Positions 1 through 38,571 of a stretch of DNA of 64,000 nucleotides are shown here, piece by piece. The position numbers were made by a program, and so were the translations under genes. The stretch covers positions 62,001 through 126,000 of the forward strand of contig CAMPDV010000081.1 of assembly GCA_946699065.1 (NCBI GenBank). Reading direction: 5' to 3'. Under the pieces are notes generated by a model, which was not told the origin of the DNA, searched no databases, and saw only the letters and a list, made by a program, of their open reading frames with translations. Within the stretch, counting starts at the first letter, position 1. The number at the start of each line of letters is the position of its first letter. Source of the stretch: Loxodes magnus (Eukaryota; Ciliophora; Karyorelictea; Loxodida; Loxodidae).

Positions 1-3000
1 ATGGTCTTACAGGTACCTGTCTTGACGTCCCATAGTCTCACCGTCTCATCTCAACTTCCCGATACGATGAACTCTGAATCACTGGATATAGCCACAGCAT
101 ATACAGAATATGTGTGACCACTCATGGTCTTGCAGGTACCTGTCTTGACGTCCTATAGTCTCACCGTCTCATCTCTACATCCCGATACGATGAACTCTGA
201 ATCACTGGATATAGCCACAGTATATACAGAATCTGTGTGACCACTCATGGTCTTACAGGTACCTGTCTTGACGTCCCATAGTCTCACCGTCTTATCTCTA
301 CATCCCGATACGATGAACTCTGAATCACTGGATATAGCCACAGCATATACAGAATCTGTGTGACCACTCATGGTCTTACAGGTACCTGTCTTGACGTCCC
401 ATAGTCTCACCGTCTTATCTCTACTTCCCGATACGATGAACTCTGAATCACTGGATATAGCCACAGATCATACAGAATCTGTGTGACCACTCATGGTCTT
501 ACAGGTACCTGTCTTGACGTTCCATAGTCTCACCGTCTCATCTCTACTTCCCGATACGATGAACTCTGAATCACTGGATATAGCCACAGATCATACAGAA
601 TATGTAGACAAATGAGGTCTTACAGGTACCTGTCTTGACGTTCCATAGTCTCACCGTCTTATCATGACTTCCCGATACGATGAACTCTGAATCACTGGAT
701 ATAGCCACAGTATATACAGAATATGTGTGACCACTCATGGTCTTACAGGTACCTGTCTTGACGTTCCATAGTCTCACCGTCTCATCTCTACTTCCCGATA
801 CGATGAACTCTGAATCACTGGATATAGCCACAGCATATACATAATATGTGTGACCACTCATGGTCTTACAGGTACCTGTCTTGACGTTCCATAGTCTCAC
901 CGTCTTATCTCTACTTCCCGATACGATGAACTCTGAATCACTGGATATAGCCACAGTATATACAGAATATGTAGACAAATGAGGTCTTACAGGTACCTGT
1001 CTTGACGTTCCATAGTCTCACCGTCTTATCATGACTTCCCGATACGATGAACTCTGAATCACTGGATATAGCCACAGCATATACAGAATCTGTGTGACCA
1101 CTCATGGTCTTACAGGTACCTGTCTTGACGTCCCATAGTCTCACCGTCTCATCTCTACTTCCCGATACGATGAACTCTGAATCACTGGATAACGCCACAG
1201 ATCATACAGAATCTGTGTGACCACTCATGGTCTTACAGGTACCTGTCTTGACGTTCCATAGTCTCACCGTCTTATCATGACTTCCCGATACGATGAACTC
1301 TGAATCACTGGATATAGCCACAGTATATACAGAATATGTGTGACCACTCATGGTCTTACAGGTACCTGTCTTGACGTTCCATAGTCTCACCGTCTTATCT
1401 CTACTTCCCGATACGATGAACTCTGAATCACTGGATATAGCCACAGTATATACAGAATATGTAGACAAATGAGGTCTTACAGGTACCTGTCTTGACGTTC
1501 CATAGTCTCACCGTCTTATCATCACTTCCCGATACGATGAACTCTGAATCACTGGATATAGCCACAGTATATACAGAATATGTAGACAAATGAGGTCTTA
1601 CAGGTACCTGTCTTGACGTCCCATAGTCTCACCGTTTAATCATGACTTCCCGATACGATGAACTCTGAATCACTGGATATAGCCACAGCATATACAGAAT
1701 CTGTGTGACCACTCATGGTCTTACAGGTACCTGTCTTGACGTCCCATAGTCTCACCGTCTTATCTCTACTTCCCGATACGATGAACTCTGAATCACTGGA
1801 TATAGCCACAGCATATACAGAATCTGTGTGACCACTCATGGTCTTACAGGTACCTGTCTTGACGTTCCATAGTCTCACCGTCTTATCTCTACTTCCCGAT
1901 ACGATGAACTCTGAATCACTGGATATAGCCACAGTATATACAGAATATGTAGACAAATGAGGTCTTACAGGTACCTGTCTTGACGTTCCATAGTCTCACC
2001 GTCTTATCATGACTTCCCGATACGATGAACTCTGAATCACTGGATATAGCCACAGCATATACAGAATCTGTGTGACCACTCATGGTCTTACAGGTACCTG
2101 TCTTGACGTTCCATAGTCTCACCGTACAATCATGACTTCCCGATACGATGAACTCTGAATCACTGGATATAGCCACAGTATATACAGAATATGTGTGACC
2201 ACTAATGGTCTTACAGGTACCTGTCTTGACGTTCCATAGTCTCACCGTCTTATCTCTACTTCCCGATACGATGAACTCTGAATCACTGGATATAGCCACA
2301 GTATATACAGAATCTGTGTGACCACTCATGGTCTTACAGGTACCTGTCTTGACGTTCCATAGTCTCACCGTCTTATCATCACTTCCCGATACGATGAACT
2401 CTGAATCACTGGATATAGCCACAGTATATACAGAATCTGTGTGACCACTCATGGTCTTACAGGTACCTGTCTTGACGTCCCATAGTCTCACCGTCTTATC
2501 TCTACTTCCCGATACGATGAACTCTGAATCACTGGATATAGCCACAGTATATACAGAATCTGTGTGACCACTCATGGTCTTACAGGTACCTGTCTTGACG
2601 TTCCATAGTCTCACCGTCTTATCATGACTTCCCGATACGATGAACTCTGAATCACTGGATATAGCCACAGTATATACAGAAAATGTGTGACCACTCATGG
2701 TCTTACAGGTACCTGTCTTGACGTCCCATAGTCTCACCGTTTAATCATGACTTCCCGATACGATGAACTCTGAATCACTGGATATAGCCACAGCATATAC
2801 AGAATCTGTGTGACCACTCATGGTCTTACAGGTACCTGTCTTGACGTTCCATAGTCTCACCGTCTTATCATGACTTCCCGATACGATGAACTCTGAATCA
2901 CTGGATATAGCCACAGCATATACAGAATCTGTGTGACCACTCATGGTCTTACAGGTACCTGTCTTGACGTTCCATAGTCTCACCGTCTCATCTCTACTTC

Positions 3001-35600: not shown

Positions 35601-38571
35601 GCCACAGCTGATACATAACTAGTGTGACCACTCATGGTCTTACAGGTACCTGTCTTGACGTCCCATAGTCTCACCGTCTTATCTGCACTTCCCGATACGA
35701 TGAACTCTGAATCACTGTATAAAGCCACAGATAATACAACATTAGTGTGACCACTCAAGGTCTTACAGGTACCTGTCTTGACGTCCCATAGTCTCAACGT
35801 CTTATCTACACTTCCCGATACGATGAACTCTGAATCACTGGATATAGCCACAGATCATACAGAATCAGTGTGACCACTCATGGTCTTACAGGTACCTGTC
35901 TTGACGTCCCATAGTCTCACCGTATAATCATAACTTCCCGATACGATGAACTCTGAATAACTGGATATAGCCACAGCATATACAACATTAGTGTGACCAC
36001 TCATGGTCTTACAGGTACCTGTCTTGACGTCCCATAGTCTCACCGTCTTATCTACACTTCCCGATACGATGAACTCTGAATCACTGGATATAGCCACAGA
36101 TCATACATAATGTGTGTGACCACTCATGGTCTTACAGCTACCTGTCTTGACGTCCCATAGTCTCACCGTCTTATCTACACTTCCCGATACGATGAACTCT
36201 GAATCACTGGATATAGCCACAGCTGATACATAATGTGTGTGACCACTCATGGTCTTACAGGTACCTGTCTTGACGTCCCATAGTCTCACCGTATAATCAT
36301 GACTTCCCGATACGATGAACTCTGAATCACTGGATATAGCCACAGCATATACAACATTAGTGTGACCACTCATGGTCTTACAGGTACCTGTCTTGACGTC
36401 CCATAGTCTCACCGTATAATCTGCACTTCCCGATACGATGAACTCTGAATCACTGGATATAGCCACAGATCATACATAATGTGTGTGACCACTCATGGTC
36501 TTACAGGTACCTGTCTTGACGTCCCATAGTCTCACCGTATAATCATGACTTCCCGATACGATGAACTCTGAATCACTGGATATAGCCACAGATCATACAG
36601 AACTAGTGTGACCACTCATGGTCTTACAGGTACCTGTCTTGACGTCCCATAGTCTCACCGTATAATCATGACTTCCCGATACGATGAACTCTGAATCACT
36701 GGATATAGCCACAGCTGATACATAACTAGTGTGACCACTCATGGTCTTACAGGTACCTGTCTTGACGTCCCATAGTCTCACCGTCTTATCTGCACTTCCC
36801 GATACGATGAACTCTGAATCACTGGATATAGCCTCAGCAGATACATAATGTGTGTGACCACTCATGGTCTTACAGGTACCTGTCTTGACGTCCCATAGTC
36901 TCACCGTCTTATCTACACTTCCCGATACGATGAACTCTGAATCACTGGATAAAGCCACAGATCATACATAACTAGTGTGACCAATCAAGGTCTTACAGGT
37001 ACCTGTCTTGACGTCCCATAGTCTCACCGACTTATCTACACTTCCCGATACGATGAACTCTGAATCCCTGGATAAAGCCACAGATCATACATAATGTGTG
37101 TGACCACTCATGGTCTTACAGGTACCTGTCTTGACGTCCCATAGTCTCACCGTATAATCTGCACTTCCCGATACGATGAACTCTGAATCACTGGATATAG
37201 CCACAGATCATACATAATGTGTGTGACCACTCATGGTCTTACAGGTACCTGTCTTGACGTCCCATAGTCTCACCGTATAATCATGACTTCCCGATACGAT
37301 GAACTCTGAATCACTGGATATAGCCACAGCTGATACATAACTAGTGTGACCACTCATGGTCTTACAGGTACCTGTCTTGACGTCCCATAGTCTCACCGTC
37401 TTATCTGCACTTCCCGATACGATGAACTCTGAATCACTGGATATAGCCACAGATCATACATAATGTGTGTGACCACTCATGGTCTTACAGGTACCTGTCT
37501 TGACGTCCCATAGTCTCACCTTCTTATCTACACTTCCCGATACGATGAACTCTGAATCACTGGATAAAGCCACAGATCATACATAACTAGTGTGACCAAT
37601 CAAGGTCTTACAGGTACCTGTCTTGACGTCCCATAGTCTCACCGACTTATCTACACTTCCCGATACGATGAACTCTGAATCCCTGGATAAAGCCACAGAT
37701 CATACATAATGTGTGTGACCACTCATGGTCTTACAGGTACCTGTCTTGACGTCCCATAGTCTCACCGTATAATCTGCACTTCCCGATACGATGAACTCTG
37801 AATCACTGGATATAGCCACAGCATATACAACATTAGTGTGACCACTCATGGTCTTACAGGTACCTGTCTTGACGTCCCATAGTCTCACCGTCTTATCTAC
37901 ACTTCCCGATACGATGAACTCTGAATCACTGGATATAGCCACAGATCATACATAATGTGTGTGACCACTCATGGTCTTACAGGTACCTGTCTTGACGTCC
38001 CATAGTCTCACCGTCTTATCTACACTTCCCGATACGATGAACTCTGAATCACTGGATATAGCCACAGATCATACATAATGTGTGTGACCACTCATGGTCT
38101 TACAGGTACCTGTCTTGACGTCCCATAGTCTCACCGTATAATCATGACTTCCCGATACGATGAACTCTGAATCACTGGATATAGCCACAGATGATACATA
38201 ATGTGTGTGACCACTCATGGTCTTACAGGTACCTGTCTTGACGTCCCATAGTCTCACCGTCTTATCTACACTTCCCGATACGATGAACTCTGAATCACTG
38301 TATAAAGCCACAGATAATACAACATTAGTGTGACCACTCAAGGTCTTACAGGTACCTGTCTTGACGTCCCATAGTCTCAACGTCTTATCTACACTTCCCG
38401 ATACGATGAACTCTGAATCACTGGATATAGCCACAGCATATACAACATTAGTGTGACCACTCATGGTCTTACAGGTACCTGTCTTGACGTCCCATAGTCT
38501 CACCGTATAATCTGCACTTCCCGATACGATGAACTCTGAATCACTGGATATAGCCACAGCTTATACAGAAC
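14686..38571 (-). CDS. Giant WD40-repeat protein, uninterrupted 194-unit block
   Basis: From the array's 5' edge down to 14686 the units keep one reading frame with no indel. Unit-boundary coordinates (38557, 37942, 30316, 22075, 15187 and others) differ by exact multiples of 123. With UGA read as Trp and UAA/UAG as Gln this is roughly 7,960 codons. About half of the units (near 97 by hand count) carry UGA right after the V of the first strand (V-UGA-SVAIS), where Trp is common in WD40 proteins (VWSVAFS); the first unit has UAA there. Seven or eight repeats usually close one propeller, so this block could form more than twenty. The true start is unresolved: the first unit runs upstream into a 91-bp repeat with no convincing in-frame ATG. 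Function is unknown; WD40 propellers bind proteins. Under the standard code the block would be a string of short ORFs. Confidence 0.75.
17897..23059 (-). repeat. Higher-order duplication inside the array, 29-unit offset
   Basis: The variant pattern at 17897-18139, 18266-18508 and from 18512 recurs at 21464-21706, 21833-22075 and from 22079, a constant offset of 3567 bp (29 x 123). A further offset of 2091 bp (17 units) links 16175-16417 with 18266-18508. An offset of 7503 bp (61 units) links the stretch beginning at 19741 with that beginning at 27244. Repeated unequal exchange or block duplication is the likely origin. Confidence 0.75.
23063..26260 (-). repeat. Tandem 13-unit (1599-bp) duplication in the array
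   Basis: Thirteen consecutive units starting near 23063 are followed directly by a second copy starting near 24662. The order of unit variants is the same: 23432-23797 matches 25031-25396 except for one codon in the SGS-x-D loop (Tyr to Asn, from CATAACTTC to CATTACTTC on the plus strand near 25352). Near identity across 1.6 kb indicates a recent event. Confidence 0.8.

Follow-up and report, generated by a model that had tools for sequence, protein, structure and literature searches.

The lamprey VLR and trypanosome VSG systems rely on silent cassettes that feed expressed receptor or coat genes. In Podospora, the NWD/HNWD genes het-d, het-e and het-r carry near-identical WD40 repeats, which exchange within and between loci, pseudogenes included, and in het-d and het-e four binding-face codons are under diversifying selection, as described in the published accounts (PMC1805685, PMC2873952, PMC12222747). 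Here we analysed a window of 64,000 nucleotides from Loxodes magnus, the first 38,571 of which belong to a far longer array of near-identical WD40 units. We conclude that this array is probably satellite DNA that derives from, and trades blades with, a receptor family of subtelomere-like location, and does not encode one giant protein.

Extent and reading frame of the array

TRF detected a period of 123 bp at positions 1-38567 of the window (313.9 copies, 94% matches), and a register alignment placed 313 units with their start inside the window, all on the minus strand. A sequence-only reading had described about 313 continuous repeats on one strand, and the window part of the array (1..38571, minus strand) bears this out; its reference to karyorelictean genomes also suits the organism. 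With TGA read as Trp, the unit of 41 residues translates as SGHTxxVxxVAISSDSEFIVSGSxDxTVRLWDVKTGTCKTM. The whole array spans 83.0 kb of contig C81 (17537-100570) and comprises 675 full units, with about 45 kb of it lying past the window. Thus the array does end outside the window, as had been proposed, but what was found there was not a C-terminal end: at C81:17537 the repeats give way to AT-rich DNA, and no C-terminal cap is present.

The proximal stretch (14687..38571, minus strand) runs through about 194 units in a single WD40 frame without an in-frame TAA or TAG. This in-frame run had been correctly recognized at 14686-38571; a 1-bp deletion in unit 193 (14686, minus strand) ends the common frame, and a second one lies in unit 227 (10444, minus strand). 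The unit alignment further revealed a zone (613..9805, minus strand) with 16 junctions that are two bases short, at unit starts 9805, 8700, 8087, 7720, 7476, 6617, 6004, 5637, 4040, 3673, 3432, 1958, 1591, 1470, 980 and 613. Across all 675 units of the C81 array, such junctions occur 44 times and single-base deletions three times. The first bases of the two-bases-short junction resemble the 3' flank of the C81 array, and the junction may be a trace of former array ends.

The long open frame raises the possibility that translation of the array, or of its 194-unit part (about 7,950 residues), yields one multi-propeller protein. Seven units from the window are indeed predicted to fold into a perfect 28-strand propeller (pLDDT 97.7), which matches PDB structures with TM scores of up to 0.96, and a kinase-WD40 stretch located just upstream of the array on contig C4, in other frames, could in principle be joined to that array by splicing. 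However, 24 kb of single frame without TAA or TAG is weak coding evidence, because table 27 lets every codon be sense, and so few single-base deletions occur across 83 kb that a clean run of this length is unsurprising. The 44 short junctions and three deletions, the missing C-terminal cap, and the fact that none of three examined array starts (C81, C6 and C4) has an N-terminal module linked to it in frame all speak against a giant protein.

Genome-wide copies and a family of receptor-like genes

A 32-mer from the unit core occurs 359,617 times exactly, and 493,406 times with up to three mismatches, in the 705.7-Mb assembly, presumably the macronuclear (MAC) one, whereas the reversed control returned no match. 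The roughly 493,000 cores correspond to about 8.6% of assembly bases. Arrays were encountered on no fewer than four contigs (C81, C4, C6 and C2382); C2382 is array throughout the fetched 14-64 kb, with 406.6 copies, and the arrays on C81, C4 and C6 start or end no more than about 17, 49 and 133 kb from a contig end. The unit is thus tandemly repeated at several loci and in very many copies, as expected of a satellite.

In the Loxodes magnus genome paper, tandem repeats are put at 231 Mbp of the 706-Mbp MAC assembly, and the main text does not contain the term 'WD40' (PMC11441545). Our array copy numbers hang on this assembly, whose authors suspect, from the comparison of an 848-Mbp MIC with the 706-Mbp MAC assembly, that low-complexity repeats were misassembled (PMC11441545). 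A short gene array that had been collapsed or falsely expanded would agree with that suspicion; yet the assembly is HiFi-based according to the same source, the arrays lie on at least four contigs, and the C81 units, 287 of 675 being distinct, form an ordered mosaic between unique flanks. We therefore regard an assembly artefact as extremely improbable.

A 30-mer derived from blade 6 of the genes was found in 412 copies with up to three mismatches (control, 0). In the 25 genes that we read, the array unit makes up the central blades of a WD40 propeller, usually of seven blades, that follows pentapeptide-like repeats. Four genes taken from islands of the repeat showed seven PF00400 stretches (L026, L027 and L030) or six (L028). 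The N-termini of L026 and L027 are RING-like, below the Pfam cut-off in a search with E up to 1, and those of L028 and L030 contain a protein kinase among the families listed (best 25 of 39 and 25 of 43); NACHT was not found in the former two at E<=1 or, among the matches listed, in the latter two. Twenty loci were hand-picked among 150 scored hits rather than being the top 20. Pfam repeats, seen in these genes, and four-stranded blades, predicted for the seven array units, are both expected of a WD40 beta-propeller. Judged from these sequences, the best explanation is that the family numbers hundreds of genes and represents the active form of the unit; the functional form is likely a gene with about seven blades, outside the window's array.

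Most of the placed genes lie near contig ends and point outward. This was seen with 16 hits on contigs of known length, 700 kb or longer, and with all 55 places on contigs of index up to 300, drawn from the first 100 listed blade-6 matches, most distances in the latter set being based on interpolated contig sizes. L028, which belongs to neither set, is an exception, as it points inward, lying 66 kb away from the right-hand end of contig C2. To our knowledge, telomeres of Loxodes have so far gone undetected.

Part of an ordinary related gene is present in the window itself (51800..52950, minus strand), with repeats that by eye are pentapeptide-like, followed by seven WD40 units (seven PF00400 stretches); at conserved positions it encodes Gln by TAA/TAG and Trp by TGA. 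The window also contains a tRNA-Thr(AGT) (62453..62527, plus strand), which we take to be of the eukaryotic type. Directly next to the 5' end of the array, TRF found an AT-rich repeat of 91 bp in four copies (38576..38951, minus strand), and the start of the C6 array is also abutted by a repeat that by eye looks related.

Variable codons and the sharing of blades

In the C81 array, a minor residue reaches at least 10% at exactly codons 5, 6, 8, 9, 24, 26 and 32, and a 10-kb slice of C2382 yielded the identical set; codons 5, 6, 8, 9, 24 and 26 hold variation in genes and arrays alike. For the genes we used 68 'sat' blades from the 25 genes, leaving out pattern-missed and frame-changing blades, and blade classes were redone by position because motif classes are partly defined by similarity. 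Framework pN/pS was 0.36 in gene blades 2-4 (n=68), as against 0.91 in the proximal (193 units) and 1.91 in the distal array (481 units). At the variable codons it reached 2.74 in gene blades 2-4, 3.54 in the proximal and 5.60 in the distal array, and was not above 1 in gene blade 1 (0.54, n=13). The high values in the arrays may be inherited.

Rare framework changes in the C81 array (24 nonsynonymous, 7 synonymous) did not depart from the 76% nonsynonymous share expected under neutrality (p=1.0), whereas those in gene blades did (23 to 19, p=0.003); direct comparison of the two was borderline (Fisher p=0.053). The framework of the genes is constrained, and that of the C81 array looks neutral. 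Hence the C81 array, in addition to being repeated, lacks the coding constraint that would set it apart from a satellite. The suggestion that the long frame reflects either selection on the protein or a very recent expansion survives in its second half only. With a framework pN/pS of 0.91 even within the in-frame part, no joined modules and some 493,000 unit cores in the assembly, we reject the initial idea of a single giant WD40 protein as very unlikely.

The neutral framework, the high copy number and the proximity of the C81, C4 and C6 arrays to contig ends would suit a satellite that simply serves a structural purpose, for example in subtelomeric heterochromatin, in which the WD40 origin is incidental and exchange with genes has ended. 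The identity between genes and arrays makes this unlikely. Gene blades 2-4 agree with the array consensus at 97.7% of framework positions, silent sites counted. Among 19 genes (of 23) with a recognised blade 5, mean pairwise difference was only 4-5% in blades 2-4, compared with 25% in the pentapeptide part, 20% in blade 1 and 11% in blades 5-6, the similarity of blades 6-7 being inflated by the query used. Moreover, three of the 68 gene blades are exactly identical to an array unit. In the genes L048 and L049, one blade apiece matches a C81 unit without any difference, and blade 3 of a gene on contig C28 matches C2382 units at 123 of 123 bases. A search with the 72-base core of this blade gave 15 places, of which 14 lie on C2382 and the remaining one is the gene itself, while the neighbouring blades 2 and 4 differ from every C2382 place by at least seven and at least four bases; this rare-combination match is one out of one pre-selected gene blade searched genome-wide.

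The homogenised blades 2-4 and the exact blades constitute indirect evidence that repeats are exchanged between loci, as in the Podospora NWD genes. Met at codon 26 was found in 143 of 377 scored C2382 units, one of 68 gene blades and none of 675 C81 units, a distribution that favours transfer from array to gene. Weighing against our account, only four of 67 gene haplotypes recurred among the 150 haplotypes of the C81 array. Pairwise distances of gene parts correlated at p<0.05 in three of 21 pairs (pentapeptide/blade 3, r 0.30; pentapeptide/blade 1; blade 1/blade 3), which fits wide shuffling in either direction. A gene 12 kb from the C81 array (start at about C81:5153) was considered as its parent or special exchange partner and rejected, its blades differing from the array by 3, 2 and 3 mismatches, no closer than some genes elsewhere. 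The two-bases-short junction is common to this gene and the array.

A stronger proposition is that the arrays are a functional archive, kept because gene conversion copies single blades into genes. The single matching blade of the C28 gene between two that do not match, the Met-26 frequencies, the homogenised central blades and the clustering of genes near contig ends are what such an archive would predict. On the other hand, the neutral C81 framework reveals no selection on its coding quality, Tyr at codon 15 occurs in 56 of 675 C81 units and in none of 68 gene blades, and the one rare-combination case might also have arisen from gene to array. Exchange may be a by-product, and we consider an archive plausible, short of probable.

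Returning to a satellite that trades blades with the receptor family, we propose that the genes combine an N-terminal RING-like finger or kinase (in the cases sampled), pentapeptide-like repeats and a WD40 propeller whose top face would bind a ligand, with the N-terminal domain signalling. Blades 2-4, having one common framework, would recombine among genes and with the arrays. Unequal exchange would have multiplied the unit until it numbered roughly half a million, and exchange between genes and arrays may still be going on.

Relation to known systems

If this account is correct, a satellite made up of the ligand-binding module of a receptor-like family takes up some 6-9% of the assembly of a protist, about a quarter of the 231 Mbp of reported Loxodes tandem repeats is accounted for, and one array and a distant gene have an exact rare blade in common. 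We found no description in the literature of a recognition system of this kind in Loxodes. More tentatively than the archive itself, we envisage that the satellite arrays, some of them near chromosome ends, form a silent library with roughly half a million sensor blades, and that blades are copied singly from it into hundreds of receptor-like genes located at those ends, such that the recombination maintaining satellite-tipped ends may generate receptor diversity. It would then become testable whether silent repeats can serve a single cell as a library that supplies its recognition diversity.

The solved structure 2YMU resembles the modelled array units in fold (TM 0.95 on the seven-unit model) and in the near identity of its blades, but it is one protein, whereas the Loxodes array is satellite DNA. 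In lamprey VLR and trypanosome VSG, the likeness lies in silent copies as a source; the differences lie in somatic assembly or an expression site and in the direction of copying, which in Loxodes is suggested by one case. A close counterpart is Podospora, with which Loxodes has in common near-identical repeats with variable binding-face codons, gene blade 1 excepted. Codons 7, 9, 25 and 27 of P. anserina flank conserved codons 8 and 26, and in Loxodes codons 6, 8, 24 and 26 flank V7 and D25, with the same 2/16/2 spacing. Podospora NWD proteins carry NACHT, in contrast to the RING-like or kinase N-termini examined here; pentapeptide-like repeats and usually seven blades further distinguish the Loxodes genes. 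Furthermore, the published reports count 69 repeats in the sequenced Podospora strain, against some 493,000 copies in Loxodes, which unlike those of Podospora reside mostly in satellite arrays. If our account holds, the Podospora principle of mutation supply, reshuffling and a few selected codons operates in Loxodes on a set of repeats that is larger by almost four orders of magnitude.

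Extent and coding status of the array

The sequence-only reading had counted about 313 near-identical WD40 repeats in the window, and this count stood: TRF gave 313.9 copies of period 123 at window 1-38567, and 313 units begin inside the window when aligned to the WD40 register. It fell short, however, of the full size. The whole array occupies C81:17537-100570 on contig CAMPDV010000081.1 (C81), 83.0 kb with 675 full units, of which the window (C81:62001-126000) holds under half. Among these units 287 are distinct, and two blocks of 10 identical units recur. Its 5' flank is AT-rich DNA, including four 91-bp repeats that are AT-rich themselves; this 85-91-bp repeat (ATTTACACTTGATGTCTGGGTTGGATCGG...) adjoins the array start at window 38576-38951. 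By eye, similar sequence abuts the array start on contig C6 and follows genes, the places being about 1100-1800 of L029 and the stretches downstream of the genes in loci L026 and L027. The junction between units is two bases short in 44 of the 675, and three units carry single-base deletions. The first bases of the short junction resemble the sequence that flanks the array on its 3' side (TCATTTGT, C81:17537), and the junction is also found between blades 4 and 5 of a nearby gene (C81:2401-5153). In L031, on contig C4, a protein kinase and a frame-changing WD40 stretch (1-2200) directly precede the start of a WD40 array.

WD40 blades often have tryptophan at the site where TGA falls in the units. 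With TAA/TAG translated as glutamine and TGA as tryptophan, the gene at window 51.8-52.9 kb yields SPDQKWIISAS; the tRNA-Thr in the window has the anticodon AGT. Loxodes magnus is described in the genome paper as a karyorelict with table 27 (PMC11441545), and an open frame says little because that table has no codon as a sure stop.

Whether the array is itself a gene, translated into one giant protein, was judged from its borders and its substitutions, and we consider this very improbable. No domain lies in frame in the AT-rich DNA upstream of the C81 array, and the C6 array start resembles it; the C4 array does come after a kinase-WD40 stretch that splicing could link to it, but that stretch lies in other frames. 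The 3' end of the C81 array runs out into AT-rich DNA, and the short junctions and single-base deletions likewise speak against a gene. Rare changes at framework codons (those outside the variable set described below) were 24 nonsynonymous to 7 synonymous in the C81 array, as expected under neutrality (76% nonsynonymous without selection, p=1.0), versus 23 to 19 in gene blades 2-4 (p=0.003); compared directly, array and genes gave a Fisher p of 0.053. Framework pN/pS was 0.91 even in the in-frame part of the array, 1.91 beyond it and 0.36 in gene blades 2-4. Selection on the protein, one of two options raised for the long in-frame stretch, is not needed, because 83 kb contain only three single-base deletions and the two 10-unit blocks recur.

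The array is probably one part of a large satellite. Throughout the assembly (705,730,643 bases, 7,843 contigs), a 32-base core of the unit has 359,617 exact copies and 493,406 with up to 3 mismatches (reversed control, 0), counted as assembled copies; at 123 bp each, they amount to 44 to 61 Mb, or 6.3 to 8.6% of the assembly. The main text of the genome paper, which makes no mention of WD40, assigns 231 Mbp of the 706-Mbp MAC assembly to tandem repeats and suspects misassembly of such repeats (PMC11441545). A second WD40 satellite family has 126-bp units (GHADSVLSIAISPDQKWIVSASYDDTIKVWDFQTGSCLRTFT), with arrays read or listed on contigs C119, C6957, C1503 and C9 and indicated by the spacing of matches on C272, C620 and C1832; an exact 33-mer has 1,990 copies. 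In three stretches (216 units) it varies at codons 41 and 42 and at codons 4, 5, 7, 23 and 25, the latter corresponding to 5, 6, 8, 24 and 26 of the 123-bp unit. The window's own pentapeptide-WD40 gene (51.8-52.9 kb) is similar to this family.

Receptor-like genes and the variable codons

Small islands of the unit are ordinary genes, in which pentapeptide-like repeats precede a WD40 propeller, mostly with seven blades (1-7). A RING-like finger is the first element read in L026 and L027, its Pfam E-values of 0.008 and 0.013 missing the cut-off; a stretch that by eye is coiled-coil-like comes next, and each gene has seven WD40 matches (Pfam); the pentapeptide repeats reached E 1.4e-11 in L027 and were recognized by eye in other genes. 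L028 and L030 instead carry a protein kinase (E 7e-38 and 9e-38) followed by a pentapeptide-like region, with six and seven WD40 matches, respectively. When the diverged blades 6-7 served as the query, 150 of 78,165 candidates were scored, all at E 1.1e-37 or better. A blade-6 30-mer occurs 412 times (control, 0), a number that may include broken copies or alleles. Twenty of the 150 scored loci were read, without their N-termini: by eye, 16 have seven blades in one frame, and L040 has six. Frame changes were seen in L033, L047 and L051 and also, on C81, in a gene that lies 12 kb away from the array, an indel and a short intron looking alike in this reading.

Variation is concentrated at largely the same few positions in arrays and genes. 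In the C81 array, minor residues make up 10% or more at exactly seven codons (5, 6, 8, 9, 24, 26 and 32), and a 10-kb slice of the array on contig C2382 gave the identical seven; codon 4 is the only C81 codon with at least 10% silent variation. Gene blades 2-4 (n=68) have at least 20% minor residue at codons 5, 6, 8, 9, 24 and 26, with a pN/pS of 2.74 in the variable set and 0.36 elsewhere. The corresponding values were 1.83 and 0.26 for blade 5, and 0.54 and 0.33 for blade 1 (n=13). An AlphaFold2 model of seven window units (mean pLDDT 97.7) has 28 strands, those of the first unit at residues 7-12, 18-23, 27-32 and 38-42, and matches propellers of known structure (TM up to 0.96). In this model codons 5-6 sit in the loop that leads into the first strand, 8-9 at its start, and 24-26 in the loop that joins strands two and three. 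The usual WD40 topology puts both loops on the top face, which these variable codons are therefore predicted to share.

Probable exchange between genes and arrays

Pairwise comparison of 19 genes aligned in register gave a mean difference of 25% for the pentapeptide part. For the blades, scored at framework codons, the mean is 20% for blade 1, only 4-5% for blades 2-4 and again higher, at 11%, for blades 5-6. Third-base identity for blades 1-6 is 0.64, 0.86, 0.93, 0.92, 0.80 and 0.83 (19-23 genes, depending on position). Framework bases match the array consensus at 97.7% in blades 2-4 and 66.8% in blade 5, and most pairs of gene parts show no correlation of their distances (p above 0.05 in 18 of 21).

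Blade 3 of a gene on contig C28 carries a rare combination whose 72-base core has 15 copies in the genome; apart from the gene's own, all 14 lie on C2382, where one 123-bp array fills positions 14001-64000 throughout (406.6 copies). The whole blade is identical to places in that array (123/123), while blades 2 and 4 are at least 7 and at least 4 bases off every place in it. Methionine at codon 26 is present in 143 of 377 scored C2382 units, 1 of 68 gene blades and none of 675 C81 units. Copying in reverse, from gene to array, would be less parsimonious; parsimony favours this single blade having been copied from array to gene.

One blade each of L048 and L049 is identical to C81 units. Frequent import from C81 is disfavoured, because only 4 of 67 gene haplotypes are present in its array and Tyr15, found in 56 of 675 C81 units, is absent from all 68 gene blades.

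Contig ends and a proposed scheme for blade renewal

On contigs that reach 700 kb or more and whose length is known, all 16 gene matches fall in the outer 18% of the half-contig, and 15 of them point outward (p=5e-4); in a larger set, with lengths mostly interpolated, 51 of 55 do so. The gene in L028 points inward. Contigs C26, C32, C103 and C160 have one gene place near each end (lengths partly inferred). At 10 of 12 fetched contig ends, all from contigs carrying receptor-like genes, an AT-rich tandem repeat of 79-107 bp fills the fetched 1 kb; on C16 it takes up the last 223 bases, and the fetched 1 kb of the C2 right end has none. The end-repeat loci are L052-L061, L063 and L009, the last being the 219 bases with which C81 opens (C81:1-219). 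The repeats have one polarity, with the pyrimidine strand running 5' to 3' inward; that of C99 lacks the motif words counted. When up to 3 mismatches are allowed, a 40-base core has 570,680 copies, which at 80 bp each come to about 46 Mb. Among the matches listed (first 100 places, 10 contigs), those on seven contigs are on the plus strand, no further than about 10 kb from the left end; those on three are on the minus strand at high coordinates, near the right end by inferred length. Since Loxodes telomeres and telomerase are reported to have eluded detection (PMC11441545), this repeat is a candidate for a terminal repeat or a telomere substitute.

We propose that blades 2-4 are kept exchangeable in a receptor-like family located near chromosome ends, and that a supply of mutations, reshuffling and selection on a small number of codons would together renew its binding face. 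Repeated unequal exchange may have released blades into satellite arrays, which would now drift yet stay similar enough to recombine with the genes. The arrays could even be a library of blades that the genes use, a suggestion we make tentatively and hold to be less likely than not; the arrays may instead be a by-product.

Our literature searches found no paper on Loxodes and WD40, few on Loxodes tandem repeats (the genome paper among them), and no title on the subject among the matches listed for WD40, satellite DNA and coding tandem repeats or for ciliate WD40 and pentapeptide repeats. Within these searches, the WD40 satellite and its gene family appear new. The closest likeness is to Podospora, where codons 7, 9, 25 and 27 are reported to be positively selected, to flank the conserved codons 8 and 26 and to map to the binding face (PMC1805685, PMC2873952); Loxodes codons 6, 8, 24 and 26 flank V7 and D25 with identical spacing. 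Renewal of the kind that we suggest for Loxodes has been proposed there as well, with pseudogene repeats also taking part (PMC1805685).
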